A stretch of 55,800 nucleotides of DNA from Gammaproteobacteria bacterium (lineage in GTDB: Bacteria; Pseudomonadota; Gammaproteobacteria; Steroidobacterales; Woeseiaceae): NCBI GenBank assembly GCA_009937615.1, contig JAACFB010000023.1, positions 1 through 55,800 on the forward strand, in the 5' to 3' direction. Each line of letters begins with the position of its first letter. Position 1 is the stretch's first letter. Positions 36,037 to 55,800 of this stretch are shown in pieces. The notes beneath the pieces are model-generated. The model was not told where the DNA came from, ran no database searches, and was given only the letters and a program-made list of their open reading frames with translations. The position numbers were made by a program, and so were the translations under genes.

Positions 36037-38004
36037 ATGATGGGTAAGTTAGTCAGGTTACTTTCTGCAGCAGTGTCCGTGTTCGTCGGGTTTTCGGTGA
36101 TGAGCCTGCTCGCGGCGACGGCGCAGGCCGCTCCGGCGCCTTATGCCGAGACGGTGATCCTTAACGGAAAAGTCATTACGGCGGATTCGGACGATCCGGA
36201 GGACATTACTATCGCCGAGGCGATAGCAATCTACGGCGACCGCATCATGGCCGTCGGCAGCAACGAGGACATTCGGAAGCTCATTGCCGACTGGACCGAG
36301 GTCATCGACGCCAAGGGCAACTCCGTAATCCCGGGCCTGATCGATACGCACAACCACATCTATGAAACGTCGACCGGTTTTCCGTGGGTTGTGAGATCTC
36401 TGCCCGAATTGCTGGAGATCGATGTACGTGCGAATACCGAGCAGGAACTCGCCGATATACTGCACAAAGCGGTCGCGGCTCGCGCCAACCAGGTAGACGA
36501 CGGCACCTGGATACGCATTCGGCTCAATCCCGCCGAAGTGGCCGTCAAGACCTTCGGTGACGAGGTGACCCGCAGCAGCCTCGATGAGGTTGGTCCGGAT
36601 AACCCGGTATTCGTCAGCACCCGGGGGGGCTCGGTCCTCAATACGAACGCGATCGAGGCGGTCGAAGGTCATTACGGCAATGAATTGCCGGCCGGCTACT
36701 GGATGAACGGGAAAGACATCGGCTGGTCCGGCGAATACACGGACTTTTCGCGCTGTATCGGCCTCGACCTGATCTCGGGTAAGCCCGAGGTCTTCGACAC
36801 GTACATCAAGGGTTATTTCGAAGTGATGCAGGCGAATGCGCAGATCGGCGTAACGACGCACAAGAGCCATCTGCAGTGCGAGAGCGGTTTCAGCGCATCC
36901 TCGCACCTCGCCCGCAACGGCCTGATGCCGATACGGCTGGCCTGGGGACATCGCTGGATGCAGCCCTTCAGCCCCTATATCAAGGAGACTTACCGTCGCA
37001 TTGGCGACTGGACCGGTTACGGCTCGGACTTCATGTGGAGTATTGGTAGCAGCGTCGGCGGTATTGATGCCGGCGGCGTCGGCTGGTGCACGTCGATGCC
37101 TGCCGACGACAACATCAAGGGCCGCGAGCAGTGTCCGCCAGCCCCCGAAGGTCTCGAGATCGACGCTATTCAGCCGATCAATACCGTGCAGAATCGCGCG
37201 AGGCGGACCGAGCATCTCGAGACGCTGGCCGCGCTGGCTGCCGAAGGCAGAATCTCGGGCATTCCGGGCTGGCACGTCTCCGGCGACGGTGCCCTGGATC
37301 TGCTGTTCAAGACCTACCAGGCATCCGGCATGTCGGACGAGAAAATCAGGACGCTGCGTATCGAGAGCGACCATTGCCACGCGGTTACCCAGGAGCAGGT
37401 TCAACTCGCTGCTCGCCTGAACCACACGTTCTCGTGCGACGCAGCAGACACGCCCACCCGGGTCATCAAGGCCGGGTATGGCGAGGAGTACCTGACCCTG
37501 AATGCGCCCGTGAACAGCATGCTCAAGGCAGGCGCGCGCGTCGTGATCAGTGAATTCGGCATCCAGGGAGAACTGCGTACGTCGCCGTTCGAGGACGGCG
37601 TGATGTGGCTGACGCGAAAGATCAATGGGGAAACCTGGGGCGTGCCCGAGGAAGCCGTTCCCGATCGTATGACGCTGATGCTGATGATGACGCGCTGGGG
37701 CGCCTATCCCCTGTGGCGGGAAAATACGATCGGGTCGATCGAGGTCGGCAAGCTGGCGGATATCGTCATCCTGAACGGTGACTACATGGCCGGACCGGTA
37801 GAGGATCTCGACAAACTGACCTCGATCCTGACGCTGATTGGCGGGCAGGTCGCCCATGAAACCAGTGAACTGCGCGGCAATACCCTCAACTTCAGTACCG
37901 ATACCGCCGAGTGGACGCTGGAGCAGAACACGCCGACAACGCTCTGGCGCTGGGACGAAGCGCCCGAGATACCGGCATTTTTGACCGGGGCAGCCGGCCA
38001 TTAA
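36037..38004 (+). CDS. Exported YtcJ-like amidohydrolase AH2
   Basis: The 655-residue protein has a Sec signal (SVFVGFSVMSLLAATAQA). The N-terminal sandwich is ETVILNGKVITADSDDPEDIT; the metal motif is DTHNHIY with His105 and His107. The YtcJ-type motif is canonical here (WHVSGDGALDLLF), and a histidine pair occurs in ESDHCHAVTQ. The C-terminal sandwich closes with EVGKLADIVILNGD. It is therefore the most conventional of the three hydrolases in the window, and only distantly similar to AH1 and AH3. Two adjacent ATG codons are available; AGAGGA lies upstream. Expected role: periplasmic hydrolysis of an amide, ester or lactone. It is divergent from MoxR operon 2. Confidence 0.9.
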   Translation: MMGKLVRLLSAAVSVFVGFSVMSLLAATAQAAPAPYAETVILNGKVITADSDDPEDITIAEAIAIYGDRIMAVGSNEDIRKLIADWTEVIDAKGNSVIPGLIDTHNHIYETSTGFPWVVRSLPELLEIDVRANTEQELADILHKAVAARANQVDDGTWIRIRLNPAEVAVKTFGDEVTRSSLDEVGPDNPVFVSTRGGSVLNTNAIEAVEGHYGNELPAGYWMNGKDIGWSGEYTDFSRCIGLDLISGKPEVFDTYIKGYFEVMQANAQIGVTTHKSHLQCESGFSASSHLARNGLMPIRLAWGHRWMQPFSPYIKETYRRIGDWTGYGSDFMWSIGSSVGGIDAGGVGWCTSMPADDNIKGREQCPPAPEGLEIDAIQPINTVQNRARRTEHLETLAALAAEGRISGIPGWHVSGDGALDLLFKTYQASGMSDEKIRTLRIESDHCHAVTQEQVQLAARLNHTFSCDAADTPTRVIKAGYGEEYLTLNAPVNSMLKAGARVVISEFGIQGELRTSPFEDGVMWLTRKINGETWGVPEEAVPDRMTLMLMMTRWGAYPLWRENTIGSIEVGKLADIVILNGDYMAGPVEDLDKLTSILTLIGGQVAHETSELRGNTLNFSTDTAEWTLEQNTPTTLWRWDEAPEIPAFLTGAAGH

Positions 38005-38495: not shown

Positions 38496-39776
38496 TTAAA
38501 CCGAGGCGTGTGGTTTGCCGGGGCGAACCTTCGTGGCGTCGCGCGCTCCCTTCTCGTAATCGTGATCGTGCGGCAGGAGGACCGAGGCGGAGCGAACCTT
38601 GTGGTCCTCGGGGTCGACGCCGGGCGGCAGCTCGCCTTTTTCCTGCAGGTTCTTAATCGCCTTGAATAGCTTGCGACGAGCCAGCATGATGCCTTTGTCC
38701 GTGGGTGCCAGCATTTCCTTGGTGCGATCACAAATCGGCCCCATGCTTTCCTGAAGAGAACCATCCTGAATCGCGATGCTATCGATACCGCTATAGAGGA
38801 GCCCGGCCTTCTGCGCTTTGCGATTCATTAGATAGTCGTTGCTCTTATTCGCGAGCGGCATATAGGTGCCCGGCACGTATTTGCAGTGAATGCCCTGGCC
38901 ATCTTCCATCGCTGCGCGTTCGATTGCGGTCAGATCGCGCTGCGATTTGTAGTCGAAGCTCCAGGCCCAGCAGTTCTCGTCATTGATAGGCACCCAAAAA
39001 TGGCCGTGCACCGGGTGATCGCCGCGCGGCGGAACCATCGTAAAGCACGGCATCACCCAGGGCGTGATGCGCCAGTAATACTGGTCCTCTTCGGCCATGC
39101 GCCGCGCCCCGATCAGCAGGCCACCGTCTGTGTCCGCTACCTCGAACACGGGTTTCATGTCGCCGAGGTTGTACTTGTTGCCGCCGGCTCCCCTGAACAG
39201 CGGATCCGTTTCGAGACTGGTGCTGTGCAGGAATGAAACATGGCTCGAGTCGATTCCGCCCTCGAGCGACTGCAGCCAGTTGCACTGCTGGTAGCGCTTG
39301 GAAACAAAACGCTGTTCGGGTGTCACATTCGCGAACTCCCACTCCGGAAGCGGGGGTTTCTTATCCGGGTCGCCCATGTAGGCCCACAGGATTCCGCCTT
39401 TCTCGATCAGCGAATACGCCGTTAACTTGATGTTCTTGCAAAATCCCGGGTCCTCGGAGGGAACTTCGATGCACTGGCCTGTCACATCGAATTTCCAGCC
39501 GTGGTAAGGACACCGTAGCCCGCTTTCTTCATTACGGCCGAACCAGAGAGACGCGCGACGGTGCGCGCACAGTTCGTCCATGAGCCCGAGGCGTCCGTCG
39601 GTATCGCGAAACGCGATCAGTTTCTCCGACAGCAATTCGACGCGGACCGGTGCGCAATCGGGTTCAGGCAGTTCCTCGGCCAGCAGCGCGGGCAGCCAGT
39701 AACAGCGGAACACGTCACCCATCGGCGTTCCGGGTCCGGTCTGAGTCAACAGGTCGTTTTTTTCTTTAACTAACAT
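38496..39776 (-). CDS. Rieske non-haem iron oxygenase, phthalate 4,5-dioxygenase-like alpha subunit
   Basis: The 426-residue protein has a Rieske 2Fe-2S domain with Cys70-Ala-His72 and Cys89-Pro-Tyr-His92 (ELCAHRRASLWFG, GLRCPYHGW). The mononuclear iron site follows in GGIDSSHVSFLHS (His179, His184). The N-terminus MLVKEKNDLLTQTGPGTPMGD and overall length resemble phthalate 4,5-dioxygenase and related monomeric aromatic ring hydroxylases or O-demethylases. It needs a reductase, which is not in this window. A 4,5-dihydroxyphthalate-decarboxylase-like protein is encoded at 41840-42784 on the same strand, which supports a phthalate-type substrate. Confidence 0.88.
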   Translation of the reverse strand: MLVKEKNDLLTQTGPGTPMGDVFRCYWLPALLAEELPEPDCAPVRVELLSEKLIAFRDTDGRLGLMDELCAHRRASLWFGRNEESGLRCPYHGWKFDVTGQCIEVPSEDPGFCKNIKLTAYSLIEKGGILWAYMGDPDKKPPLPEWEFANVTPEQRFVSKRYQQCNWLQSLEGGIDSSHVSFLHSTSLETDPLFRGAGGNKYNLGDMKPVFEVADTDGGLLIGARRMAEEDQYYWRITPWVMPCFTMVPPRGDHPVHGHFWVPINDENCWAWSFDYKSQRDLTAIERAAMEDGQGIHCKYVPGTYMPLANKSNDYLMNRKAQKAGLLYSGIDSIAIQDGSLQESMGPICDRTKEMLAPTDKGIMLARRKLFKAIKNLQEKGELPPGVDPEDHKVRSASVLLPHDHDYEKGARDATKVRPGKPHASV

Positions 39777-42855: not shown

Positions 42856-43317
42856 TCAGGCGATACCCGGGATCCAGCGCTTGACCCGCCGGGTGTAGGC
42901 CGAGTACTCCTCGCCAAAAAGTTCGCTGAGGCGGGCCTCATCCCCGATGACGCGCCGGTGGAACCACGGAATATGCAGCAGCATGAGCAACAAGCCGAGA
43001 TAGGATCGCAGGCACACGGCAAGGCCGGCGAGGAAGATCAGCAGTCCCAGGTACATTGGATTGCGGGTGTAGGCATAGATGCCGCTGGACACGATTCGCT
43101 CTGGCGGCTTGCCAAGACCCGGCCCGCCGCCGCCCAGCCGGGACCGGTACCGCCCGGACAGCCGGTATTGCAGATAGCCCCACGCAAGCAGCGGCAGACC
43201 CGCCAGCTGGAGCCGCAGTGCGGGTCCCTGGAGCAGCCATTCGACGAGCACCAGCAGCACCGGGTAGATGAGAAATACCCGGCTCGAAGTCGCCCTGACA
43301 AGCCGAATCATTTTCAT
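42856..43317 (-). CDS. Isoprenylcysteine carboxyl methyltransferase-like membrane protein
   Basis: The 153-residue protein has four hydrophobic segments. It matches bacterial ICMT/NnrU-like methyltransferases (PEMT-like): RIVSSGIYAYTRNPMYLGLLI, then FHRRVIGDEARLSELFGEEYSAYTRRVKRW at the C-terminus, the conserved SAM-binding E and R-P motif area. The ATG overlaps the stop of the upstream EutA-like gene (ATGA), indicating coupled translation. Bacterial members methylate varied small molecules or are of unknown function; the coupling with a EutA-like reactivase is unusual. Confidence 0.85.
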   Translation of the reverse strand: MKMIRLVRATSSRVFLIYPVLLVLVEWLLQGPALRLQLAGLPLLAWGYLQYRLSGRYRSRLGGGGPGLGKPPERIVSSGIYAYTRNPMYLGLLIFLAGLAVCLRSYLGLLLMLLHIPWFHRRVIGDEARLSELFGEEYSAYTRRVKRWIPGIA

Positions 43318-44924
43318 GCGACAGCGTCCCTCGCGTGGCCGGCGCCCGTTTTCGGATGGTGCACGAGCTCGCGACGGTGAACGCCGTCGATAACGTCATT
43401 GAAAATCAGCGACTTGATCGTTACGGGCACGGTATTTGAAGGCAATCGCAACTTGCCGATATCGACCGAGTCGAAGTCCCATAGCGCGACGCCATCGATG
43501 ACGAGGACCTCGCTGCCTACCTCCAGCTCACGATGAAGTATGGCACCGAGATTCATCGCGATGTCGGCATCGAGGATGATATAGATCGGCTGGCCCGTGG
43601 CGAAACGCGGCTGCAAGGCCGTAGCGATGCCCTCTGCCAGGCCGCGTATTCGCCGATAGGTCGGCGTTCCCTCCCAATGGAATGCAAGTACGAGTTCTTC
43701 ATCGGTGGGGGTTACTTCGAACATCAGCATGTGGCGGCGAATCGCTTCGACCAGGGCTTCGGCGTCAAAGTCCTCGGTGAAGTCGAAAGCCGGCCGCAGT
43801 ACTTTCAGGTTGCGGCGCGGCAACAGGAGATCCGGGTTGCTGATATAGCCCGTGTTGCCGCTCAGCTGTGCGGTGAATTCGGAACAGCCCAGGGCCGTCG
43901 AGCGAATCCCCTGGCTGTCCGGCAGTAGTTGCCAGGGTAGTGATCCTGTATCGATTCGTGCCCGCAGCGCCTGCCCGAGCTTCTTGCCGAGGTCGCCGAA
44001 CTCCCGATGCTCCCGCGCATAGACATACTCCGCCACGCCCCCGGAGCACACGATCGACTGAACGCCGTCGAGCTGCTCGATTGGATCCGTCAAGTAGAGG
44101 TCTTCTTTGTCCGCAGCGGACAATTCGCCGGTCAGCGCGGCGACAATATCGTCTGCCATCGACTCGGCGACGGACTGCAGCTCGTCATCGGCGATGGTAT
44201 CGCCCAGGCGCCAGTCAAAACCCGCTCGTGCCGCGTGCGTTCGCCCGGCCGGATCGATGCGCTCGAGCTTGTGATTCTCATCCATCGCGAGCAGCCGCCC
44301 GCCGACGTGAATTGCCGCAGTCGACAAGATCTGGCCATTGTCAATCACGCTGAGCTTCGTGGTGCCGCCGCCAATATCGATGTTCAGGACCCGCTCTGCG
44401 CGGTCATGCGACATCTGCGCCGCGCCTGAACCATAAGCGGCCAGCATCGCTTCCATGTGATGCCCGGCCGTCGCGCAGACCAGTGCCCCGCACTTTTCTG
44501 CCAGTATGCGTGCGATTCGCTCCGAGTTCTCCCGCCGCAGGGCCTCGCCGGTCAGTATGACGACGCCGGTATCGATGTCGTCCGGATGCAGGCGCGCATC
44601 GTGATAGGCCTGGTCGACAATCTCCCCCAGTGCTCGCGCATCGATACGGGTTTCACTTTCATAGGGAGTCAGGCTGACAGGCGATTCGAACAATGTTGTT
44701 CGCTCGACAACGAGATAGCGCGTTGACAGGTCAACGGCCTGGCGCTGTAGGTGGACGCGTGAAAAGAGGATCTGCGTGCCGGCTGAGCCGATATCGATAC
44801 CGACGCTGTTGAGTATGACGTTGTCGCGCTGCCAAAGCGGGTGCTCTTCGATCGGTCCCTGATAATCGGGGTCGACATGGTGGCCGTCGGGCGTGTGGTC
44901 CGGATCGGGGTGGTAGTGCTGCAA
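43314..44924 (-). CDS. eutA: EutA-like ethanolamine ammonia-lyase reactivating ATPase, orphan
   Basis: A protein of about 536 residues with the ASKHA (hsp70/actin-like) fold seen in EutA: GIDIGSAGTQILFSR near the N-terminus, LTGEALRRENSERIARILAEKCGALVCATAGHHMEA, NIDIGGGTTKLSVID (phosphate 2), IVCSGGVAEYV (adenosine motif) and IYIILDADIAMNLGAI. EutA frees damaged cobalamin from ethanolamine ammonia-lyase. No eutBC or other eut gene is nearby, so the client is unknown. A TTG start at 44924 has GGAGG five bases upstream; the alternative ATG at 44963 has no ribosome site. A histidine-rich N-terminus (HYHPDPDHTPDGHHVDP) is notable and could bind metal. Confidence 0.82.
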   Translation of the reverse strand: MQHYHPDPDHTPDGHHVDPDYQGPIEEHPLWQRDNVILNSVGIDIGSAGTQILFSRVHLQRQAVDLSTRYLVVERTTLFESPVSLTPYESETRIDARALGEIVDQAYHDARLHPDDIDTGVVILTGEALRRENSERIARILAEKCGALVCATAGHHMEAMLAAYGSGAAQMSHDRAERVLNIDIGGGTTKLSVIDNGQILSTAAIHVGGRLLAMDENHKLERIDPAGRTHAARAGFDWRLGDTIADDELQSVAESMADDIVAALTGELSAADKEDLYLTDPIEQLDGVQSIVCSGGVAEYVYAREHREFGDLGKKLGQALRARIDTGSLPWQLLPDSQGIRSTALGCSEFTAQLSGNTGYISNPDLLLPRRNLKVLRPAFDFTEDFDAEALVEAIRRHMLMFEVTPTDEELVLAFHWEGTPTYRRIRGLAEGIATALQPRFATGQPIYIILDADIAMNLGAILHRELEVGSEVLVIDGVALWDFDSVDIGKLRLPSNTVPVTIKSLIFNDVIDGVHRRELVHHPKTGAGHARDAVA

Positions 44925-45233
44925 TTTAGCCTCCGCAAGTGTCTCTGCATACGCCGCAGGCATCGTGAGATGGCGCTGTCGCGTTGACGGATACTAACTT
45001 GCACCGTGCTTTCGTTAACCGCAATGTTAATTGAAGATGTAACGGTTTTTCTGAGTCAAACTAGGCGCCCGGGACTCGGCGGAGGCCGTAGCCTGCGGCC
45101 CGGGAATGATGGCCGATTATTGGTTTGCATCGACTGACCGATTGCCGCATATTTTTGTAATCGTTTGCGGCGTAAGCAACGCTCGGCGCTGAAAACGTCG
45201 TTAGTGTTCATCAACCGATGAAAAGGTAGCCCA
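44925..45233. other. Divergent intergenic region between EutA-like gene and MoxR operon 3
   Basis: About 309 bases. A TTGACG at 44984 with a poor -10 at 17-base spacing (TGCTTT) faces operon 3. The middle part is AT-richer and contains short inverted pieces (GTTAACCGCAATGTTAA), not clearly an operator. No RNA gene seen. Confidence 0.4.
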
Positions 45234-46226
45234 TTGAATTTCGACGAAGCGGTAGAAAAGGCGAAGACACTGCGTGCGAATCTCGGGCGGATTGTCAAAG
45301 GACATGAAGCGGGTCTCGACGCGACAGTCATTGCAATCCTCGCGCGCGGGCACGTGCTTATCGAGTCCGTCCCTGGCGAGGGAAAGACGTTGCTGGCGAC
45401 GGTGCTGGCGGCGTCCATATCCGGAATCACGACGGGGCGTATCTCCGGACAGCCGACGCTGAAGCCCTCCGACCTGCTGGGTGCCGAAATTGTCGGTCGC
45501 GGGGAAGGGGATTTTCAGCTGATCAAGGGCCCGATCTTCAACAACATCGTGCTTTTTGACGAGTTGAACCGGACGGATCCGAGGACGCAGTCGGCCCTGC
45601 TTGAATCGATGCAGGAATTCCAGGTAACGATCGGCGGTACGCAACATCCCCTGCCATTGCCGTTTCATGTCATAGCAACGCAGAACCCGCTCTCTCACGA
45701 GGGAACCTGGGAGCTGGATGCGGCGGCAAAGCAACGGTTTCTGATCAAGATCGAATGGAAGCCGCCGGCGCGACACGTTGAATATCAGATAGCCAGTGAG
45801 TCGAAGGCGTTTCTCAAGGAGAACATCGAACGCCTGCAGCCGGCGTTATCGGTCGACGAACTGCGGGAAATCCAGGAGATTGCTGCCAAACAGGTTGAGT
45901 TGAGCAGCGACATCATTCACCTGATGAATGCGATAACGGTAGCGACGCGGCCGACCGATGAGTCGTACCCGGCGGCGGCGCTGGATGCCAGCGGCATAGG
46001 CAGCGAGGCGATCAGCAAGTCCGGCGGCGTCAGTTCCCGTGCGTCGAGCTTCTGGCCGCCACTGCTTAAAGCGCACGCCCTGTTTCATGGCCGGCAGCAG
46101 GTCGTTCCGTTCGATGTGTTTGCGACCGCTTACCCGATGCTGACGCACCGCATAGAGACAAACTACCCGGTGGACATGAAAGAGCTGATTCACCTGATCC
46201 TGCGCGAGCGGGGATATGCTTACTAA
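45234..46226 (+). CDS. MoxR-family AAA+ ATPase, operon 3
   Basis: A 330-residue MoxR ATPase, start TTG. Walker A is SVPGEGKT (45-52), Walker B VLFDELNRTDPRTQSALLE, sensor 1 IATQNPLSHEGTWELD. It is strongly similar to the operon 2 protein: long identical stretches such as SGQPTLKPSDLLGAEI and GPIFNNIVLFDELNRTDPRT occur in both. The first glycine of Walker A is serine, as there. It is first in a seven-gene plus-strand operon ending at 51590. The C-terminus overlaps the DUF58 start by 11 bases. Confidence 0.92.
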   Translation: MNFDEAVEKAKTLRANLGRIVKGHEAGLDATVIAILARGHVLIESVPGEGKTLLATVLAASISGITTGRISGQPTLKPSDLLGAEIVGRGEGDFQLIKGPIFNNIVLFDELNRTDPRTQSALLESMQEFQVTIGGTQHPLPLPFHVIATQNPLSHEGTWELDAAAKQRFLIKIEWKPPARHVEYQIASESKAFLKENIERLQPALSVDELREIQEIAAKQVELSSDIIHLMNAITVATRPTDESYPAAALDASGIGSEAISKSGGVSSRASSFWPPLLKAHALFHGRQQVVPFDVFATAYPMLTHRIETNYPVDMKELIHLILRERGYAY

Positions 46227-47127
46227 GCAGGACGAGTCGGCAGAGGCGATACTCGACAAACGTAAGCTGCAGACGCTCGGCGTGCTGTTGCCCATCAGGC
46301 TAAGCGCCCTGTCGTTTTTCTCGGGGCGGCACCCGCTGGGACGGGCCGGCGAGGGCATGCGTTTTCTGCGCACTCGGCCGTTCGAGCCCGGAGAGGACAA
46401 TCCTCGAGACATCGACAAGTTCAGCCCGCCAGGCCAGGTCTGGATCAACGAGTGGGAGGCGGAAGCCCAGGCTTCCGTGCTGGTCTATGCAGATGTGTCA
46501 GCGTCAATGGATTTTGCGCCCAAGGCGGGGTTGCGCAATCTCGCATTGCTGCAGCTGACGTACTCGTTGTGGCGAGCCACTGATCGCGTCAGGACCGTGC
46601 TTTTCAGTGCTGACATACGAGAAACTGTTGCGCAGCGAAACCTCAAGGGCCAGCTCGAGCGGCTCATGGACCGATTGAGTGCAACCGGCATGCGGCAGGG
46701 CCAGGACGCGATCGACGTGCTCAGCGCACATGCCGCGGGCATGCAGCCGGTTCGCGACGATCTCGTTTTCATGGTATCCGACTTCTGCCCGGTGGCCGAC
46801 AGGTCGCTCGACGAGGATGCGCAAACCTGGCGCCTGGCCCAGAGGGCGATACCCTGCGACATTGTGCCCGTCATCATCAGCTTCGAACTGGCCACTGAGC
46901 AGCATGGGTCGATTCGCCTGTGGGATGCCGAGCGGCGCAAACATCGCCTGACGCTGCTGACGCCTGCGCGGATTGCGCGAATCAACTCGGTGGAGGCCGA
47001 GCGCGTGGCCAGGCTCGAACACCTGTTTCGTCGGCTGGGCATGGATTACCTCAAGCTGAAGCAGGAAAAAGATGTCTATCCCGGCCTGGAGACGCTGGCG
47101 CGATGGCGCAGAAGGCGCCGCAATTGA
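46216..47127 (+). CDS. DUF58 protein, MoxR operon 3
   Basis: A soluble 303-residue protein. DUF58 motif RTRPFEPGEDNPRDIDKFS, MIDAS-like VYADVSASMDF, later VSDFCPVADR, basic C-terminus ending RRRRN. It is the counterpart of the operon 2 protein, with the same Met-Leu-Thr start overlapping moxR. The 3' end overlaps the next gene by 25 bases if that gene starts at its ATG. Likely the adaptor to the membrane vWA proteins. Confidence 0.88.
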   Translation: MLTKQDESAEAILDKRKLQTLGVLLPIRLSALSFFSGRHPLGRAGEGMRFLRTRPFEPGEDNPRDIDKFSPPGQVWINEWEAEAQASVLVYADVSASMDFAPKAGLRNLALLQLTYSLWRATDRVRTVLFSADIRETVAQRNLKGQLERLMDRLSATGMRQGQDAIDVLSAHAAGMQPVRDDLVFMVSDFCPVADRSLDEDAQTWRLAQRAIPCDIVPVIISFELATEQHGSIRLWDAERRKHRLTLLTPARIARINSVEAERVARLEHLFRRLGMDYLKLKQEKDVYPGLETLARWRRRRRN

Positions 47128-48134
47128 TCGGCTGCCGATATCGTCGTTTGCGCCTTTTTGCCGCTGTTGCGTCCTTGGCGTTGGCGAGTGCGGCGTGGGC
47201 CGTTGACGATTTTGCCGCGGAAGTATTTCGCAACGATTCAATAACGATCAACGCGGGTCTCGCCGTCGACAGCAGCCAGGTGGTGCATTTCGGTGACGTG
47301 CTGTCGATGATCGTTACGATCGCCTGGGACCCCGGCGCGGTCGCGGTGCCCGAGCCCGATGCCGGTTTCTTTACGGCGGCATGGCCGGAATCCGAAGGAA
47401 TTGTGCTTGCGGATTTTCGGGTACGGCAGAGCACGGCGCCAGGCCCCAGGAAAAACCGGCTCCACGCCCGGTATGACTTCCAGGTACTTGGTTGTCCGGA
47501 CGAGCAAGCGACCTGTCCAGGCGATACCGTGTATCCGTTGCCCGAATTCAGACTGGAGATTCGCCAACGTAACGCGGCAGATGCTGAGGCGGCAACCGAG
47601 CTTGTTCGCTTTCGCCCCTGGCCTGAACTGCTCACGGTCGTTTCAACCATGACACGTGATGCGGAAAACCAGCTTTATCCATTCGAAACATATTTCCCGA
47701 CCGGGGGCTACCCGGATCCGCTGACCGGGACGGACGGCACGCGCGCCTCCGTACTGACAGCCGGGATTGCATTGGCTATTTTGATCGGAGGACTGCTTAT
47801 GTGGCCGTTTCGCTCACGAGCGCAAAGAGAATCCGCGACGGAGACGCCGCGGTGGCAGAAACTTCTGCAGGACCTGCGGGACGACGACGGGGAGAACGAG
47901 GGCCGTTTCCTCGATTCGCTTCGCCGATGTCTCGTCTGGTATTGCAACGACGAACTTGCGATTGATCCGTTTGTCTGGCTGGACCTCGCCGAACCGGGCG
48001 ATGATACCCACGAGGACAAGGACCACGTCGAGCTGCGTGCCGTGTTTGTCGAGCTGCTGCACAGTCCGACGGGTCGCAGCAACGAGCTGATGAAAAAACT
48101 CGATGATCTTATCGGGCAGGGCGGGCGCGCCTAG
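47103..48134 (+). CDS. Exported beta-domain protein with membrane anchor, MoxR operon 3
   Basis: A 343-residue protein with a signal peptide (RLFAAVASLALASAAWA), a periplasmic beta domain with one probable disulfide (LGCPDEQATCPG), a membrane segment (VLTAGIALAILIGGLLMW) and a cytoplasmic helical tail holding SLRRCLVWYCNDELAIDPF. It matches the third gene of operon 2 in order, size and motifs. The start is uncertain: ATG at 47103 overlaps DUF58 by 25 bases, while an in-frame TTG at 47124 would sit in a TTGA overlap with its stop and give a tidier signal peptide. Confidence 0.8.
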   Translation: MAQKAPQLIGCRYRRLRLFAAVASLALASAAWAVDDFAAEVFRNDSITINAGLAVDSSQVVHFGDVLSMIVTIAWDPGAVAVPEPDAGFFTAAWPESEGIVLADFRVRQSTAPGPRKNRLHARYDFQVLGCPDEQATCPGDTVYPLPEFRLEIRQRNAADAEAATELVRFRPWPELLTVVSTMTRDAENQLYPFETYFPTGGYPDPLTGTDGTRASVLTAGIALAILIGGLLMWPFRSRAQRESATETPRWQKLLQDLRDDDGENEGRFLDSLRRCLVWYCNDELAIDPFVWLDLAEPGDDTHEDKDHVELRAVFVELLHSPTGRSNELMKKLDDLIGQGGRA

Positions 48135-48155
48135 GCGCGGCGAGTAACGACGCTG

Positions 48156-49211
48156 ATGGTCTTTTCCGGAATCGACGTGGGTGCCTGGTGGCCTCTGCTA
48201 CCTGCTGCCGGAGCTCTCGTCATTAGCTGGATCGCCTGGTCGCGCCGCAGCGGCGAATTGTTTCCCGACATTGCTTTGCTCAGAAACAGTGCGGCCGCGG
48301 GTGGTCTCGTGGATCGCATGCCGCTGCAGCTCGGCGTGCTGATCAGCGTGTTGCTCCTACTCTCACTGATGGAACTGTCGGCGACACGCTTGATCGAGGT
48401 CGACCGGCGCGCCCGGGATTTCCTCGTGGTTGTCGATACGTCCCGCTCCATGCGCGAGAATACGGCACTGCTTCGGGAACAGTTTCCCCCGACCTACGAG
48501 CGCAAGGCGAATCTCTATGTCGGTGAGGCCGAGGACCCGGCAAAAATTCCGAATCTTGCGCGTTACGAAGTCGCGCGCGAGAGCCTGCTGCACTACCTTA
48601 CATCGCGCAGCGAAGTCGACCGCGTCGGCCTGATTTACTTCAACTCGATGATCTACCTGATGTCGGGTTTTACGTCGAATTTCGACTTCATCGAACAGCA
48701 GCTGGCAGAGATGGACGGCTACGTGACCTTCGGTACCAACATGCGCTGGGCGCTGGAACAGGCGTTGAACCTGGTCGAGCGATACCCCGGGCGCAATCGG
48801 CGCGCCATTATTCTGCTGACGGACGCTGAGGCCCGCAATACGGATTACCTGCAGCAACAGCTCGACCGGCTCCGCCGGCTCGACATCGCTTTTTACCTGC
48901 TCTGGATCACGGCGGACACGGCAGACGGCCAGTCGGCGCTCGCCACGGAATTTCTGCGTACCGTACGAACCTTCGGCAGTGTCTTCACGATCGACGATGT
49001 GAGCGAGGGCTACCTTGACGAAGCGCTTGATGAGATTGCAGAGCTCGAGGACTACGCGTACCGGGAGGGCAGTCATAAGCGTGTCGATCTCTCCAGGTAC
49101 ACGCTGCTGGCCGCTCAGTGGCTCATGTTGCTGTGGATTCTGCTGGCCGGAACGCTTTGGCTGCCCCTGACGAGGCTGAAGCTCGCCGGCGAGGGCGCGC
49201 CCCGTGATTAA
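48156..49211 (+). CDS. Membrane vWA protein, first of MoxR operon 3
   Basis: A 351-residue BatA-like protein: N-terminal membrane segment (WWPLLPAAGALVISWIAW), second (LGVLISVLLLLSLMELSA), vWA domain with complete MIDAS (VDTSRSMREN, FGTNMRWALEQ, LLTDAEARN), then C-terminal membrane segment (WLMLLWILLAGTLWL). The FYLLWITADT segment matches the operon 2 homologue. GTG of the following gene overlaps its 3' end by 8 bases. Confidence 0.88.
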   Translation: MVFSGIDVGAWWPLLPAAGALVISWIAWSRRSGELFPDIALLRNSAAAGGLVDRMPLQLGVLISVLLLLSLMELSATRLIEVDRRARDFLVVVDTSRSMRENTALLREQFPPTYERKANLYVGEAEDPAKIPNLARYEVARESLLHYLTSRSEVDRVGLIYFNSMIYLMSGFTSNFDFIEQQLAEMDGYVTFGTNMRWALEQALNLVERYPGRNRRAIILLTDAEARNTDYLQQQLDRLRRLDIAFYLLWITADTADGQSALATEFLRTVRTFGSVFTIDDVSEGYLDEALDEIAELEDYAYREGSHKRVDLSRYTLLAAQWLMLLWILLAGTLWLPLTRLKLAGEGAPRD

Positions 49212-50091
49212 TTATCTGGTGACTCACAAGAAGCAGCTCGGCAGGAACTTCCTGCTGGTATTGCTTGTCGCGGTCTTTATAGGTGGCTTGCAGGCCGCGA
49301 TGTTTTTCAATTTGTTCTCGGCGCGCGTTGCAGAGGCGAATGTCCAGCTCTTCGAACTCATGGTGGAGAATTCGCAGCGTACGCTGTATCGCGAGATTGC
49401 CGCGCAGATCGAGTCTCTCGACGTTGCCCCACCGGAGACGGATGATCAGGAAAGGTCGCTTGGCGACGCCTGGGATGACTTCCGAAGTCACTTTGCGACC
49501 GCACCGCGCGAGGCTGTAGCGGCACTCGCCGACGAACTGCCCGCCTTGACGGCGGCAATGGGTGCCGACAACCAGAAAGTCACGCGCATTAGTGCGAACC
49601 TTGAACGCCTCGGACAAATCTACGCCGATTCGTACAAAACGCTGCTCGCCGAACTCGACCGTCCGCCCGCCTACGTCTGGCCGGTGGCCGTTGTGCTCGC
49701 CGAGCGCTCAGGATATCGGCAATCCGTGCGATTGAACCGTGCTCTGTACCTCGCACAAACCGGCGACATCGGTACTGCCCGGGTAATGCTGGCCGGCCTC
49801 AATGCGTCGGTCGACGATCCGCGGATCCGCGCAACGATCTACTACCTGCTGGGCCGCCTGCAGTTCGAGTTGTTCCGCGCCACGCCCGAAGTGGAATATT
49901 TCACGCAGGCACTGCAGTACCTGCGCCAGAGCCTGCAGGCAGACCCCGAATTACAGCTGGCGAAGAGACTGCTCGATTTTCTGCTGTCCTTGCCCCAGTC
50001 GGCAGCCGCACCGCAATCCGCAGAGGGCCGGCCCGAGACGCCATCCGAAGGCGAGGGCGCGGCGGTCTCTGCGGAAAAGCGCGTGTTTTGA
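49204..50091 (+). CDS. Membrane-anchored helical-repeat protein, MoxR operon 3
   Basis: A 295-residue protein with a GTG start overlapping the preceding gene. One N-terminal membrane segment (FLLVLLVAVFIGGLQAAMFF) is followed by a periplasmic helical region with TPR-like features (ALYLAQTGDIGTARVMLAGL, YYLLGRLQFELFRATPEVEYFTQALQYLRQSL). The C-terminus is a low-complexity tail (RPETPSEGEGAAVS) resembling the glutamate/glycine tail of the operon 2 protein. It is the counterpart of the gene at 30793. Likely a scaffold linking the two vWA proteins. Confidence 0.78.
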   Translation: MINYLVTHKKQLGRNFLLVLLVAVFIGGLQAAMFFNLFSARVAEANVQLFELMVENSQRTLYREIAAQIESLDVAPPETDDQERSLGDAWDDFRSHFATAPREAVAALADELPALTAAMGADNQKVTRISANLERLGQIYADSYKTLLAELDRPPAYVWPVAVVLAERSGYRQSVRLNRALYLAQTGDIGTARVMLAGLNASVDDPRIRATIYYLLGRLQFELFRATPEVEYFTQALQYLRQSLQADPELQLAKRLLDFLLSLPQSAAAPQSAEGRPETPSEGEGAAVSAEKRVF

Positions 50092-50101
50092 GCCGGCCAG
50101 C

Positions 50102-51040
50102 GTGTTTCTGATAGTCGCACTCCTCGTTGTATCCGCGCTCGCCGGCTACTGGTTTTGGCTTCGCCCCTGGGCGAGCGTTGTCCATCGGCATTCGACGTTC
50201 GCGGTATTGCTCGTGATGGTGCTGCTGCTCGTCTACACGGACCGGGGCGGGGATGGATTCTCGGGCCCCGGTGGGCCGGTCATGGTGGCGGTTGCAGCCG
50301 ACGTCTCTCTCAGCATGGGTACACTCCCCGAACCCGCGGCCAACGGCGATATCGGCACGCGGCTCGAGCGAGCGCAGGGTGTGCTGCTGCCGCTGCTGGC
50401 GAACCTGGGCGCAACCGCGCGCCCTGTGATGATCAGCGTGACGGCATTCACCTCAAAGTCCGAGACGATACTTGCCTGGGACGATGACCTGTCGCTGGTT
50501 CGCGAGATCGTTGAATACGTGCTTACTACCGGTTTGATCACAGAAGCAGGTTCTGACCTGGGAGCAGCATTGAATGGCGTAATCCCGTTGATTGACAGTC
50601 TTCCCGAAGCATACCGCGGGCCCGAGTACACAAAGTTCCTGATCCTGCTGTCCGACGGTGAACAGACTGTTACGCGCGCAAACAGTGCGACAGCGATCGC
50701 CAAGCTGCACGAACTCGGCGTACGAATCATCGCGCTGCACGTCGGTTTACCGGATGTCCCGGAGGGGCTGCCTGTCTATGACGAAAACAACGGCTTCGTC
50801 GGGTTCGAGGAGGTAAGCGGCCAGATATTCTCGGTCCCCGATCCCGACGTTATGCGCCTCGTCGCGGGCGAGGATCCGGCGCGAGGCTTGTTTGTCCGGG
50901 CCGAAAATAGCGACGCCTTGGCAACAATAACCGATTACATTGGTCTACAGACGAGTAGTTCGGCTGCCGCTACATTGCGAGTCGTTGCACTGGTTCTGCT
51001 CTGGGGATTACTCGTGTGGACTCTGCTGCGTTGGTTCTGA
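50102..51040 (+). CDS. Membrane vWA protein, second of MoxR operon 3
   Basis: About 312 residues from GTG at 50102. Membrane segments: FLIVALLVVSALAGYWFW and FAVLLVMVLLLVYT at the start, and LRVVALVLLWGLLVWTLLRW at the end. The vWA domain has MIDAS AADVSLSMG, a serine in AGSDLGAAL at the usual threonine position, and LLSDGEQTV. The PVYDENNGFVGFEEVSGQIFSVPDPD block is shared with the operon 2 counterpart. Longer in-frame starts upstream overlap the previous gene in an arginine-rich antisense-like region and were rejected. Confidence 0.84.
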   Translation: MFLIVALLVVSALAGYWFWLRPWASVVHRHSTFAVLLVMVLLLVYTDRGGDGFSGPGGPVMVAVAADVSLSMGTLPEPAANGDIGTRLERAQGVLLPLLANLGATARPVMISVTAFTSKSETILAWDDDLSLVREIVEYVLTTGLITEAGSDLGAALNGVIPLIDSLPEAYRGPEYTKFLILLSDGEQTVTRANSATAIAKLHELGVRIIALHVGLPDVPEGLPVYDENNGFVGFEEVSGQIFSVPDPDVMRLVAGEDPARGLFVRAENSDALATITDYIGLQTSSSAAATLRVVALVLLWGLLVWTLLRWF

Positions 51041-51050
51041 GGAGATACTG

Positions 51051-51590
51051 ATGAAAACGTCGCGAATTCAGCGAATGGGACAACGTACAGCGATCACAGC
51101 GGTCGCATGCTTAATGTCGGCCGGCGTTTACGCGCACGGCGGCGGCAACTGGAATGCGTTTCGAATCGACGGCGTCAACGACAATGCGCGAGCCCGCGTA
51201 ATCGCAATTCAAAGCATCTTCGGTGAGATCATTCGCGGCCGGTCCGGTGCCGACCAGTGGCCGGTTCCGGCACTCCGCGAAACGCGCGACACGTTGATCA
51301 CCGCCAAGGAAGAGGTCGACGAAGTTCTGGAGCATTACGTGATTGACGGTATCAATATCCAGGTGTTTTCGATCCTGCAGGCCGAACCGAGGGCCGGCAG
51401 GACAGTCGCTGCAAGCCGGGCGCTGGATGCGGGAATTGCACTGATAGATCACGCCGCATCGTTTGATAGCGCTGATGATTTCATTGCTGACTTCTATGCT
51501 GGAGGACTCGCCGCCCGGCTTTATGAGCTTCTCGAAGCGCATGGTGAACGCATGGATTTGTACAAGCTGCTCACGCCAGTCGCGGAATGA
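51051..51590 (+). CDS. Exported helical protein, last gene of MoxR operon 3
   Basis: A 179-residue protein with GAGGAG ahead of its ATG and a signal peptide (TAITAVACLMSAGVYAHGGG). The mature part is helical (RARVIAIQSIFGEIIRGRSG, RDTLITAKEEVDEVLEHYVID, DDFIADFYAGGLAARLYELLEAHGERMDLYKLL). It occupies the same terminal position as the exported protein of operon 2 but shows no obvious sequence similarity, so it may be the client-specific part. The split amidohydrolase AH3 begins 227 bases downstream in the same direction. Confidence 0.75.
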   Translation: MKTSRIQRMGQRTAITAVACLMSAGVYAHGGGNWNAFRIDGVNDNARARVIAIQSIFGEIIRGRSGADQWPVPALRETRDTLITAKEEVDEVLEHYVIDGINIQVFSILQAEPRAGRTVAASRALDAGIALIDHAASFDSADDFIADFYAGGLAARLYELLEAHGERMDLYKLLTPVAE

Positions 51591-51817
51591 TTGCGCAAGA
51601 GCGATTCATTTCTGAAGTAACAGATTACGGCGCTGTTCAATGTTCTGAACACCTTACGTGCACCGTTGCCGCCACATGGGGCGCCGCGTTGATTCGTAAG
51701 AGGCTTTTCGATGTAATGAATCGCAGTTTTGTGTCCCATGCCGGCGGCGCTGACTTTCACGGAAATGACTGCTTTAAGCCTGGGTCTTTGCAACACGTTC
51801 TGTTCGGGAGGACGGAA

Positions 51818-52594
51818 ATGAGAGATCGACGAAATGTAGCGGCAAGCTTCGTAACGCTGCTCGCGCTCATCTTTGGTGCGAGCGCTGCGGCGCAGACGAC
51901 AGTTGCCAGCTTGCCACCGCAAATTTTGCTGTACGCCGACACGGTGTACGTGAATGCCAAGATCGTGACGCTGGATGAGCATGAAATGAATGCGGACCCG
52001 GGGACGATCGTGGAAGCGATGGCCGTGCGTGATGAAATCATAATTGCGCTGGGCAGCGATCGGGAAATGCGCGCGCTCGCCGGGCCGGACACCAGGATCG
52101 TGGACCTCCAGGGCAAGACAGTGCTGCCAGGGTTTGTCGAGAGCCACGTGCATCCGATGGGTGAATCCGAGCGCTTCGCGAGAGAGCAGTATGGATTGCG
52201 AACGACCCCGGAAGGCTATGTCCTGCTAATGGACGTTGGCGCAGATTCAGATGACACGATGGCCAGGGTCGCGCGCGCGATGGACCTGCTGTTGGCGCAT
52301 GCAACACCGACGCCTGACGAATGGCTCAACATTGAGCTCGCGCATGCGCCGGAGCTGGGTTTCGCTACGCCGGCTTCGGTATCAACGTTGATGAGTGCAC
52401 CCCAACTGTCGGACGTGCGAATTACCAAGTCAGACGTTTCGGAAATCGTGCCGAATTATCCGCTCGTGCTGTCAAGTGCGACCGGGATCATGGACGCGCC
52501 CAAGAAGAATATCTGGTTTCACGTGACCGCAGGTCCGGACGGACGGCCGGTAACCACGGAAGTCGTCGCACTGGATGGGAGCTTTGACCAATGA
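51818..52594 (+). CDS. N-terminal half of split exported amidohydrolase AH3
   Basis: A 258-residue protein with a signal peptide (VAASFVTLLALIFGASAAAQ). It contains only the N-terminal portion of a YtcJ-like amidohydrolase: DTVYVNAKIVTLDEHEMNAD, AMAVRDEIIIALGS, and the metal motif ESHVHP (His110, His112). It ends VVALDGSFDQ, with no C-terminal sandwich or catalytic core. These residues align with about the first third of full-length AH1 (DTIYTNAIIVTLDNHELND, ESHTHP). GGGAGGACGG is a good ribosome site before the chosen ATG. Its TGA overlaps the ATG of the second half (ATGA), so the halves are made together. Loss of the rest would make it inactive alone. Confidence 0.85.
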   Translation: MRDRRNVAASFVTLLALIFGASAAAQTTVASLPPQILLYADTVYVNAKIVTLDEHEMNADPGTIVEAMAVRDEIIIALGSDREMRALAGPDTRIVDLQGKTVLPGFVESHVHPMGESERFAREQYGLRTTPEGYVLLMDVGADSDDTMARVARAMDLLLAHATPTPDEWLNIELAHAPELGFATPASVSTLMSAPQLSDVRITKSDVSEIVPNYPLVLSSATGIMDAPKKNIWFHVTAGPDGRPVTTEVVALDGSFDQ

Positions 52595-54009
52595 AATTAC
52601 TCCATAAGAAAACCTTGATCACGAGCACCGTCGCATTGCTCGCACTCACCATCGGAGCGCCGTCTGTCGCCAGTCATCGCGTCATTCTGTTTAATGAAAA
52701 GGCAATGGAAAAGGTTCTCGACATGTGGCCGGACTTCGTTATTGCCGTGAATAATCAGGCGCGCGGGGTCGACGATCCGGGCGGCAGGGGGATCATCCTG
52801 CAAAGTCCGTTGCGGGCTCATTTGAACCAGCTTCTGCGTGAGCAGCCAACGCCGGAACAGTACGGATTTGGTTTCAAGCAGCTGGTCAGTGATTATTACC
52901 ACCGTGCCGGTATGACCACGTTCGGTTCGCGACTCAATACCAAGGACCAGGTGACTGCCTATAATTACCTGTTGCGCAAGGACGGCAAGCTGCCGATTCG
53001 CTTCGCGTACAGCTTCGATCTCGCTCGTCAGCCGATGGCGACGGTATCCGCCGCGGCATTTTATGAGTCGATGGGCTCGCTGTGGCAAACCATCGAGTCA
53101 AACCCGTGGCTCTGGATGCACGGGATGTCCAGCGAGGGTGACTGGGACGCGCCGAATCGCGGCTGCCTTGGCGAAGATCTGCCGGTTAAACCCGGGGTCG
53201 ATGAACGCCAGGTCAAAGAAATTCTCGAAACGTGTCCGGACTTTAATTCTGCCACCGTGCAGGCGCTGATGCGCGGGCTGCGCTCGGGCTGGCGATTTGC
53301 CGGCGTGCATGGCGTTGGCAGTAAGGCGTTGCGAATCTTCGTCGAGCAGCTCGAAGAGCAGATGCGGAGAAACCCCGGCCTCTTGACCCCGGAGTACGTG
53401 CAGGACATGCGTAACGGATTCGCGCATGGCACGCTAACCGGGGCACTGCCGGATGTGTCCGAACAACTCGTGAAGTACAATCTGTATCTGCCGGTCAACG
53501 TCCGCCGCTCGCTTGCGATCGAGCCGACCAACATCGAGCAGCACTACGGCGAGCCGGGCTACGCGTTTCTCGCACCCGTAAAGACGTTGATCGATCAGGG
53601 TGTCCAGGTTGTTGGTGAGGCAGAGATAGTGCTGCCGAACCCGACTACCTATCTGGGCCTACTGGATATCCACGTTAACCGCGAAATCGGCGACGATGGC
53701 CAGGTTCCGGCCAAGGCCGGCGAAGGCACCGTGTACGTTGCGGACGAGGGTGTCGATCGCGTTGTCGCACTCAAAATGTTCACGTATCGTTCCGCGGAAT
53801 TTCTTTACGCCGAATCGAAAGTGGGCAGCCTCGAGCCGGGCAAGTACGCCGATTTCGTCGTGGTCGAAAATGATTATCTCTCGGGACCGGATTCGGAAAT
53901 CAAGAACAACAAGGTCATCATGACGGTTCAGGCGGATGAGACCGTTTACCAGGACGATGCGTATAAGCCCGAGGTGACGGAGGCTCGCTACAGCGCGGAC
54001 TCTCGTTAG
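52591..54009 (+). CDS. C-terminal half of split exported amidohydrolase AH3
   Basis: A 472-residue protein with its own signal peptide (LITSTVALLALTIGAPSVAS). It continues where the first half stops: RVILFNEKAMEKVLDMWPDF matches AH1 FIVFNDLGWEKTAEYMPGL, and it then follows AH1 through MTTFGSRL, YNYLLRKDGKLPIRFAYS, GVHGVGSKALRIFVEQ, FAHGTLTGALPDV, GYAFLAPVKTLIDQGV, DEGVDRVVALKMFTYRSAE and EPGKYADFVVVENDYLSGPDSE. It lacks the HxH motif, which is in the first half. The AH1 residues VGSHGMR and ETHSAG are changed to VGSKALR and GEAEIV. A separate signal peptide and a coupled start argue against a simple frameshift. Confidence 0.85.
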   Translation: MKLLHKKTLITSTVALLALTIGAPSVASHRVILFNEKAMEKVLDMWPDFVIAVNNQARGVDDPGGRGIILQSPLRAHLNQLLREQPTPEQYGFGFKQLVSDYYHRAGMTTFGSRLNTKDQVTAYNYLLRKDGKLPIRFAYSFDLARQPMATVSAAAFYESMGSLWQTIESNPWLWMHGMSSEGDWDAPNRGCLGEDLPVKPGVDERQVKEILETCPDFNSATVQALMRGLRSGWRFAGVHGVGSKALRIFVEQLEEQMRRNPGLLTPEYVQDMRNGFAHGTLTGALPDVSEQLVKYNLYLPVNVRRSLAIEPTNIEQHYGEPGYAFLAPVKTLIDQGVQVVGEAEIVLPNPTTYLGLLDIHVNREIGDDGQVPAKAGEGTVYVADEGVDRVVALKMFTYRSAEFLYAESKVGSLEPGKYADFVVVENDYLSGPDSEIKNNKVIMTVQADETVYQDDAYKPEVTEARYSADSR

Positions 54010-54031: not shown

Positions 54032-54994
54032 GTGATTGCTCGTTCTATGGCCTTTCGCCGAGCGTTGTTGCTAGCTGCCGTATTGGGCGGCCCTGCCTGG
54101 GCGGCTGGCGGCAGCGACGTCGTCATTGAGCTGGGTGATACCGCCGTCACACGCGCGCAGGTGGATCAAAGCTTCCAGATTGCGGCGCGGTTGCTGGCGC
54201 TTCGACAGGGTGTATCGCTGGCCGATCAGGACTCGTCCGTGATCGAAAAGCTCCGAATTCAATATCTGGATAAGTACGCAACTGAGCTGGTCCTTCTTCA
54301 GGAAGCGGCGCGGCGGCAACTCGATGTATCCGACGAGCAGGTTGACGCGTCGCTCGGTGAGCTGTTCGCGGACGAAGCTGCCGAAACCGCAATGCTTGCT
54401 GATACCGGCATCGCCGCGACGGCCAGGCGCGAACAGTTACGGGGAGTGGTACGGAATGAGAAGCTTGTCGAGCTGCTGACCGAGCATATGCTCCAGGAAA
54501 TTCGGATTCCTCCCGGCGACGTCATTACCATGCATCACGACGTGAAGTACGCTTTAGCAACCCCGGAAGAAGCGTGTGTCCGGCATATTCAGACCGAGAC
54601 TGTCGAAGCCGCTGCAGAGATCCTGGCCCGGCTGAAAAAGGGTGAGGATTTTGCGGCGCTTGCCTCGGCACGCAGTTCGGACGAGGCATCTGCGGCACGT
54701 GGCGGTGACCTGGGGTGCTTTGAGCGCAAGGCATCGGCAACCAACACCGCTTTTGAGAAAGCCGTATTCACCGCAAGGGAAGGCGAACTGGTTGGTCCCG
54801 TCGAGTCGCAGTTTGGCTATCATGTACTTGTTGTTTACGAACGCAGGGAACCACGCGAGCCGACCTTGAACGAAGCGTATGCGCAGATCGAACGGGAGTT
54901 AGCGATGGAGCAGCTGCCGCAGCGCATCAAGGCACTGCTCGATAACAGTGGTATCCGTACGTACCCGGAAAAGTTCTCGGCGGCGACCGAGTGA
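54032..54994 (+). CDS. Exported PpiC-type peptidyl-prolyl isomerase
   Basis: A protein of about 320 residues with a signal peptide (AFRRALLLAAVLGGPAWA), an N-terminal helical SurA-like chaperone region (about 30-160) and a parvulin domain (about 180-280): VRHIQTETVEAAAEILARLKKGEDFAALASARSSDEAS, RGGDLGCF, FTAREGELVGPVESQFGYHVLVV. Residues match the family blocks GGDLG and Q.GYH. The start is either GTG at 54032 or ATG at 54047; neither has a clear ribosome site, and the ATG gives a more usual signal. It folds exported proteins. It follows the split amidohydrolase by 22 bases and may help its halves assemble. Confidence 0.88.
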   Translation: MIARSMAFRRALLLAAVLGGPAWAAGGSDVVIELGDTAVTRAQVDQSFQIAARLLALRQGVSLADQDSSVIEKLRIQYLDKYATELVLLQEAARRQLDVSDEQVDASLGELFADEAAETAMLADTGIAATARREQLRGVVRNEKLVELLTEHMLQEIRIPPGDVITMHHDVKYALATPEEACVRHIQTETVEAAAEILARLKKGEDFAALASARSSDEASAARGGDLGCFERKASATNTAFEKAVFTAREGELVGPVESQFGYHVLVVYERREPREPTLNEAYAQIERELAMEQLPQRIKALLDNSGIRTYPEKFSAATE

Positions 54995-55004
54995 TGGAGA
55001 CGAA

Positions 55005-55298
55005 ATGAAAGTAACAATGCAAACACTGGCGGTGGCATGTGCGCTGTTCATTGCAACCCTGATCATGCTGCCGAGGGCCGATAGCCAGGAAGCCTTCCCG
55101 GACGAGCCCGGGCGGGAAACGCTGCTGCTGGCCTGCACGCAATGTCATTCGATCGGCAAGATGGTTACCGCCGACCTGACCGCCGATGACTGGCAGTTCA
55201 TCGTTTATGACATGATCGCGCGCGGCGCGCCCGTGCACCAGGAAGATATTGCAGATTTGACAACCTACCTGCAGAACAATTTCGCAGCCGACGAGTGA
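55005..55298 (+). CDS. Small exported c-type cytochrome
   Basis: A 97-residue protein with a signal peptide (LAVACALFIATLIMLPRADS) and one haem motif CTQCH in LLLACTQCHSIGKMV. The fold is a small cytochrome c of about 75 mature residues. A likely axial methionine is in IVYDMIARGAP. It starts 10 bases after the PpiC gene and just before a Tat-exported thiamine diphosphate enzyme, suggesting electron acceptance from periplasmic oxidation. Confidence 0.85.
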   Translation: MKVTMQTLAVACALFIATLIMLPRADSQEAFPDEPGRETLLLACTQCHSIGKMVTADLTADDWQFIVYDMIARGAPVHQEDIADLTTYLQNNFAADE

Positions 55299-55375: not shown

Positions 55376-55800
55376 ATGCGCAAATTAGTCGATGATTTAA
55401 TCAGTGGAAAGATTTCCAGGCGCGGGTTCCTGACGGGCATGGCGGCCGCCAGTTTCGCGCCGGCTGCGGCGCGGTCCGCGCTGGCTGCCGTCGAGCCGCT
55501 GGTGCCGGGAGCGCCGCTGCCGGAGGGTTTCGCGAGGTCCTTTACGGGTACGGGCGCGGACCACATGGTTCAGCAGATCAAGGAGACCGGTGCCGAGTAC
55601 CTGTTTGTGTCCAACGGCTCGGGCGTGGGCCCGATTTGTGATGCGCTCGTCGACAATCCCGAGCTACAGCTGATACAGGCAACCCAGGAAGGCCAGGTTG
55701 TGTCAATCGCTGACGGCTACGCGAAAGCCTCGGGCAAACCCGGGTTCGGCATGTTCAGCCGGGTCGGCCTGCCGCACTCGAGTTCCAACATGTACAACGC
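55376..55800 (+). CDS. Tat-exported thiamine diphosphate-binding enzyme (3' end outside window)
   Basis: The frame is open for 141 codons to the window end. The N-terminus is a Tat signal: a hydrophilic start, twin arginine SRRGFLTGM, then hydrophobic AAASFAPAAARSALAA. The mature part starts the Pyr domain of acetolactate synthase/benzoylformate decarboxylase-type enzymes: GADHMVQQIKETGAEYLFVSNGSGVGPICDAL and ATQEGQVVSIADGYAKASGKPG, where the glutamate of QEGQ is in the position of the catalytic ThDP-activating glutamate. Tat export implies folding with cofactor in the cytoplasm. GGGGAAGA is upstream of the ATG. Most relatives are cytoplasmic, so export is unusual. Confidence 0.85.
   Translation, partial: MRKLVDDLISGKISRRGFLTGMAAASFAPAAARSALAAVEPLVPGAPLPEGFARSFTGTGADHMVQQIKETGAEYLFVSNGSGVGPICDALVDNPELQLIQATQEGQVVSIADGYAKASGKPGFGMFSRVGLPHSSSNMYN

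Follow-up and report, generated by a model that had tools for sequence, protein, structure and literature searches.

A conserved gene pair beside a MoxR/DUF58/vWA module may encode an exported amidohydrolase divided into two chains

Can the metal site of an amidohydrolase be built from two proteins that leave the cytoplasm separately? In the amidohydrolase superfamily the whole barrel classically lies in one chain. The question is raised by two overlapping genes, here called A and B, on contig JAACFB010000023.1 (assembly GCA_009937615.1) of a gammaproteobacterium of the family Woeseiaceae, of which we analysed positions 1 to 55,800 (the window, 55.8 kb). A preliminary description of this DNA had read the locus, labelled AH3, as two genes that meet in an ATGA overlap, and this is borne out: both reading frames are open as described, with gene A at 51818–52594 (258 aa) and gene B at 52591–54009 (472 aa), both on the forward strand, and a start–stop overlap at 52591–52594. 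We consider it likely that A and B are separately encoded chains, both predicted to be exported, that join in the periplasm as one metal-dependent hydrolase, A giving the HVH motif of barrel strand 1 and B giving strands 2–8 with the other predicted ligands. In the open-access literature, judged by titles and the opening lines of abstracts, we found neither a split amidohydrolase described nor a link drawn between MoxR proteins and amidohydrolases, and as far as that literature shows the sharing of a predicted metal site between two amidohydrolase chains is new.

Homology of B to the Amidohydro_3 family (PF07969) is clear from its sequence, which matches profile positions 119–472 at 70.8 bits against a cut-off of 29.7 bits. 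A matches profile positions 1–48 at 27.3 bits, just below this cut-off. Profile and structure matches agree with the earlier proposal that the first gene encodes the N-terminal sandwich and the HxH motif and the second the remaining barrel and the C-terminal sandwich. Gene A would thus hold a predicted signal peptide, the N-terminal sandwich, barrel strand 1 with HVH and the start of an inserted segment, and gene B a predicted signal peptide, strands 2–8 and the C-terminal sandwich. By this putative strand numbering, one strand with HxH lies in A and seven further strands lie in B, and the barrel is not contained in one chain. B is nevertheless predicted to fold well alone. The Pyrococcus metal-dependent hydrolases 3icj and 3igh are the top structural matches of B and the second and third of A, and the two halves match separate, non-overlapping ranges of them; these hydrolases, however, are single chains with 18–24% identity to A/B over the aligned residues. 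Sequence searches of the PDB gave matches that were mostly short and near the two ends. Urease (UreABC) may be likened to the pair in that it has the amidohydrolase fold, several chains and accessory maturation proteins, but there a single chain, the catalytic subunit, contains the complete barrel, and the enzyme is cytoplasmic.

The window itself contains an intact relative, AH1 (5886–7976, forward strand). A aligns with AH1 residues 5–206 (37% identity), and residues 28–465 of B align with AH1 residues 267–692 (42% identity), leaving at the junction some 60 residues of AH1 (207–266) that are poorly conserved. The preliminary description had placed the junction at one point in AH1; we find a stretch with no exact point. 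In six intact relatives the match to A ends at residues 206–234 and the match to B starts at residues 267–289, and the split point falls within the variable stretch between these two parts, where the intact relative P0298 (693 aa) has a low-complexity linker. AH1 belongs to a clade of 57 sequences that have the same His and Glu pattern as A and B together, and AH1 resembles the pair further in its signal-like start and its adjoining MoxR module. The difference is that these proteins are single chains, of 596–715 aa in 56 of the 57 (P0300, at 444 aa, may be a fragment), whereas A/B is two.

Is the split peculiar to this genome? It recurs far more widely than chance would allow. A protein search at E ≤ 0.001 returned 223 B-like and 228 A-like matches, the B-like search having scored only the 7,998 candidates with the most words in common. 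For each half 120 matches were listed, including the window's own entries (P0121, P0241 and probably P0002), and all list-based counts given here rest on these. The listed B-like proteins are 399–484 aa long, although proteins of 260–826 aa could have come back, and the listed A-like proteins are 211–285 aa long; their sources include metagenome-assembled genomes of Woeseiaceae and other Gammaproteobacteria. Since 15 exact longest-contig values are common to the listed A and B sets, where a jitter control predicts 0.89, the two halves probably lie on the same contigs in these relatives. Different B homologues in several cases share one longest-contig value (P0076/P0101, P0075/P0096, P0081/P0084, P0068/P0083, P0071/P0073 and P0087/P0093/P0102), which suggests that more distant relatives carry the split enzyme in tandem copies.

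At the DNA level, a scan of species genomes found B at 85% identity in L001, 81% in L002 and 79% in L003. The gene is interrupted by contig ends in L002 and L003, and in L001 and L002 gene A immediately precedes B and overlaps it by the same 4 bp. Across the genus, A scored above the level of AH1-like proteins in 3 of 73 genomes, and a draw from the order gave 3 of 396 genomes, the same three. Two draws from the class gave only the source genome as positive (1 of 369 and 1 of 379), with no more distant AB locus at this level. The family is thus patchy among the genomes searched. In the three genomes mature A and B are 82–88% identical (mature B 85–88%), with a low rate of non-synonymous change (dN 0.075–0.112) and a synonymous rate (dS) of 1.4 or more that is partly saturated. 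In a FastTree phylogeny of 233 sequences all 121 B sequences fall in one clade (support 0.978), to which the 57 AH1-like sequences are adjacent (0.856), and the two groups together are set apart from 54 more distant amidohydrolases and AH2 with support of 0.998. The split is a family trait; it likely goes back to a single event, which fell in the variable stretch after strand 1 and before strand 2, in an ancestor that the pair has in common with the AH1-like proteins.

Both halves appear to carry their own export signal. In A, a signal peptide for the Sec pathway is predicted at about residues 1–26 (51818–51895; hydrophobic segment 6–24, cleavage site placed by eye), and in B at about residues 1–28 (52591–52674; hydrophobic segment 8–26). 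By a hydrophobicity measure of our own (a 19-residue window above 1.6, with Kyte–Doolittle values), the N-terminus is hydrophobic in 116 of the 120 listed A-like and 113 of the 120 listed B-like proteins. Four A and seven B fail; six of these seven B start within or just ahead of the mature part, and the other, P0099, reaches 1.59 against the threshold of 1.6 with an extended start. As a control we examined 59 AH1-like proteins, two of them (P0296 and P0297) shorter proteins, and counted the 47 that have the anchor motif: in none of these is the 35-residue stretch ahead of the matching point hydrophobic enough to pass the threshold. This contrast supports the view that B acquired an export signal and keeps it. 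The N-terminal 27–28 residues of A and B are 36–54% identical among the three genomes and still hydrophobic.

The start sites fit this arrangement of the genes. A longer open reading frame for A begins at 51587; the ATG at 51818, however, follows a Shine-Dalgarno-like GGGAGGA, read directly at 51806–51812, and precedes the signal-peptide-like sequence, and in L001 and L002 the A frame has its first ATG at the place matching 51818. The corresponding site of B, GGGAG (52577–52581), lies nine bases before its ATG and inside the end of the A reading frame, and this position holds GGGAG, AGGAG and GGGAG in the three genomes, all of which have the ATGA overlap. The last residue of A was considered as a sign of this overlap in the wider family and was not used, being too weak a mark that most residues would fit.

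The preliminary description had held that each half has its own Sec signal peptide and that the split looks selected and not the result of a plain mutation. Both views gain from the relatives, in which the same split recurs and the hydrophobic start of B is kept. It had also named two tests, a search for the halves as separate genes elsewhere and the conservation of the second signal peptide. The former found the same split in the listed proteins among the 223 B-like and 228 A-like matches and also at the DNA level in two other genomes, and the latter finds the signal-like segment of B kept in the listed family and in the three genomes. The core of that reading, in which the split is conserved, each half has an export signal and both chains contribute to the active site, is therefore supported by both tests.

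The predicted active-site residues are divided between the chains. The motif SHxHP occurs in all 120 listed A and in none of the 120 listed B, and its two histidines (H110 and H112 of A, 52145–52153), the HxH of strand 1, are invariant in 83 of 83 alignment rows; conversely, the strand-5 His motif is found in none of the 120 listed A. B supplies the histidines expected at strands 5 and 6 as predicted metal ligands: H240 (53308–53310), at the end of strand 5, is found in all 121 B, all 57 AH1-like proteins and 52 of 54 distant amidohydrolases, and H279 (53425–53427), in strand 6, in every member of the three sets (121, 57 and 54). A predicted acidic ligand or base, E343 (53617–53619), follows just after strand 8 and is kept in every B (121 of 121) and every AH1-like protein (57 of 57); the residue two positions after it is His in 54 of the 57 AH1-like proteins as opposed to Glu in 107 of the 121 B.

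The classical amidohydrolase site further has an Asp at strand 8 and a Lys at strand 4, the latter absent in some members. No Asp occurs in residues 341–347 of the 121 B and 57 AH1-like sequences, and two alignments that place the classical Asp one residue apart agree that neither column holds it. There is no Lys at residues 173–181 of these two sets, but the 54 distant proteins have no clear Lys column there either (K in 5 of 54 at residue 175). Because of the missing Asp, we claim homology to amidohydrolases and not classical catalysis. The altered strand 8 is also found in the 57 AH1-like proteins and therefore predates the split. Two differences from AH1 had been taken as changed core residues hinting at possible loss of activity, and both call for revision. 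In VGSH to VGSK the position concerned, 245 of B, varies freely (H 56, K 42, N 17, D 5 and M 1 among the 121 B), which rules out K245 as a mark of lost function, and in ETHSAG to GEAEIV the glutamate, E343, is the one kept throughout both groups.

Could the pair nevertheless have given up hydrolysis and now work as an exported binding or regulatory protein of two chains? The lack of a strand-8 Asp in all 121 B would fit, as would the score of A under the Amidohydro_3 cut-off. But a protein without a metal site is expected to lose ligands in some lineages, and the HxH of A and H240, H279 and E343 of B are invariant in the sets examined; the same change of strand 8 in the AH1-like proteins is, moreover, older than the split. 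We regard such a loss as unlikely. A different possibility is that A and B are not one enzyme at all but separate proteins with different partners, for which one may cite the export-like signal on each, a tail of A without a tested fold and the predicted folding of B alone. This we find improbable: the halves are complementary, their motifs excluding each other in the listed proteins, the predicted ligands of each half would have no clear use alone, and order and overlap are the same in three of three genomes.

The simplest suspicion, that a frameshift, nonsense mutation or assembly error has broken a normally intact gene, finds its footing in the existence of intact homologues such as AH1 and is hardly credible. 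The 120 listed B-like proteins and two further genomes have the same split, and B has a hydrophobic N-terminus where none of the 47 AH1-like proteins has one at the matching point. Together with the three-genome layout and the single clade of B, the family-wide split and the kept signal rule out a recent pseudogene or an error of sequencing. That two chains together build the active site is the likelier explanation, because over a hundred related proteins are split in the same way.

How might two such chains be assembled? Upstream of the pair, on the forward strand, lies a module (45234–51590) with genes for a MoxR AAA+ ATPase (45234–46226; PF07726, 145 bits), a DUF58 protein (46216–47127; PF01882, 34 bits), a membrane protein (46920–48134 by frame limits, the true start being likely later) with two hydrophobic segments, no Pfam match and relatives in G012 and G031, a first von Willebrand factor A (vWA) protein (48156–49211; PF13519), a membrane-anchored protein of 295 aa without a Pfam match (49204–50091) and a second vWA protein (50111–51040; PF00092 on the frame 49802–51040). 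Both vWA proteins have two hydrophobic segments. Just upstream of A comes a frame of 216 aa (50940–51590), possibly exported by its signal-like start as judged by eye, in which no 19-residue hydrophobic window exceeds 1.6. Downstream of B follow, also on the forward strand, a PpiC/SurA-like foldase (54032–54994; PF13616 and PF13624, signal-like start by eye), a small c-type cytochrome-like protein with CxxCH (54948–55298; SorB-like below cut-off, position conserved) and a thiamine diphosphate enzyme truncated where the window ends (55376–55800; PF02776), of which L001 has a full copy of 632 aa. The 216-aa frame and the foldase are in the same place in three of three genomes. The whole order is kept in the window, in G012 (contigs C59 and C102) and in G031, where two contigs cut B at a contig end. 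C59 ends inside the first vWA gene, and its edge overlaps that of C102 by 131 bases with one mismatch; exact end-to-end identity of the two edges was not found, owing to extra edge bases.

The window holds three such modules, each adjoining an Amidohydro_3 gene. Module 1 (8035–13697, forward strand) directly follows AH1, module 2 (29066–35745, reverse strand) is divergent from AH2, an intact Amidohydro_3 protein (36037–38004, forward strand), and module 3 adjoins A and B. Modules 2 and 3 are collinear paralogues with MoxR proteins 66% identical, and module 1 is more distant (MoxR 31–35%). AH1 with its module is also present in G012, and G031 and G049 both have AH2 beside its module; the PpiC/SurA-like gene did not turn up in L062–L064, the stretches examined around AH1 and AH2. 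We then surveyed MoxR in ten genomes of the genus, four known module holders and six picked for completeness. The 47 matches to PF07726 comprise 8 of this subfamily (146.8–152.7 bits), 28 others (166.7–217.7 bits) and 11 weak ones (below 25 bits) that were dropped. Seven of the eight have an Amidohydro_3 match within 7.5 kb on their own contig, and the eighth is on G012:C59, which overlaps the A/B contig edge. Among the matches listed, 12 of the 28 other MoxR genes share a contig with an Amidohydro_3 gene, the nearest at 10.6 kb, and none has one within 10 kb. For a MoxR of intermediate score (G110:C23), tblastn with the module and amidohydrolase proteins of the window matched only the MoxR itself in 16 kb.

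Methanol dehydrogenase is an exported two-chain pyrroloquinoline quinone (PQQ) enzyme with mxaRSACKL accessory genes. The order there, MoxR, DUF58, vWA and small membrane proteins beside an exported two-chain enzyme, is like the one at A/B, but the target is a PQQ enzyme and not an amidohydrolase, and the likeness is one of gene order. The names mxaA, C, K, L and D appear in a reference-list entry of PMC10409515. MoxR ATPases with vWA partners are known to serve metal insertion or remodelling (PMC13036017, PMC9976466, PMC11432383), and here too a MoxR AAA+ gene adjoins vWA genes. NorQ and NorD are such a pair, needed for metal insertion into their target (PMC13036017, PMC9976466); that target is nitric oxide reductase, however, and NorD is described as most likely cytosolic (PMC9976466), in contrast to the two hydrophobic segments of the vWA proteins here.

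We suggest the following course of events for the pair. Ribosomes finishing A would re-start at the ATGA, giving B in matched amounts, and both chains would cross the Sec pore in an unfolded state. Folding and pairing of the halves could be aided by the PpiC/SurA-like foldase encoded next to them. Metal loading or remodelling might be driven by the MoxR ATPase together with the DUF58 protein and the vWA proteins anchored in the membrane, by analogy with NorQD and nitric oxide reductase. A would then dock with B, and the pair would act as the hydrolase. More tentatively, we propose a TIM-barrel metalloenzyme with strand 1 and HxH from one exported protein and seven strands from another, which may be assembled and metallated across the membrane by the MoxR/DUF58/vWA proteins and PpiC, modules of this type, three of them in the window, possibly being general metal-loaders for periplasmic amidohydrolases.

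If A and B do form one enzyme, they would be a natural TIM barrel split between strands 1 and 2, with a metal site from two separately exported chains, which would offer a test of barrel folding and closure, and they would provide a natural split-enzyme scaffold. The link to MoxR points to a target that can be tested for these ATPases, a family still poorly understood: the eight modules of the subfamily found in ten genomes adjoin an amidohydrolase.

As to the substrate, aromatic compounds are a lead only, taken from the presence in the window of a LigXa-type Rieske oxygenase-like gene (38496–39776), an RraA-like aldolase gene (17632–18321) and an Amidohydro_2 gene (18363–19385), all three resembling genes for the catabolism of aromatics or lignin derivatives. 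A TonB receptor gene (24585–27521), resembling those for the uptake of such compounds, belongs with them. A gene for a HEAT-repeat protein of 504 aa (19392–20906) lies between the Amidohydro_2 gene and an ABC/FtsX transporter. A TctA-type gene of a tripartite tricarboxylate transporter (3824–5317) stands shortly upstream of AH1, and a homologue of EutA-like ethanolamine ammonia-lyase reactivases (43314–44963) is divergent from module 3.
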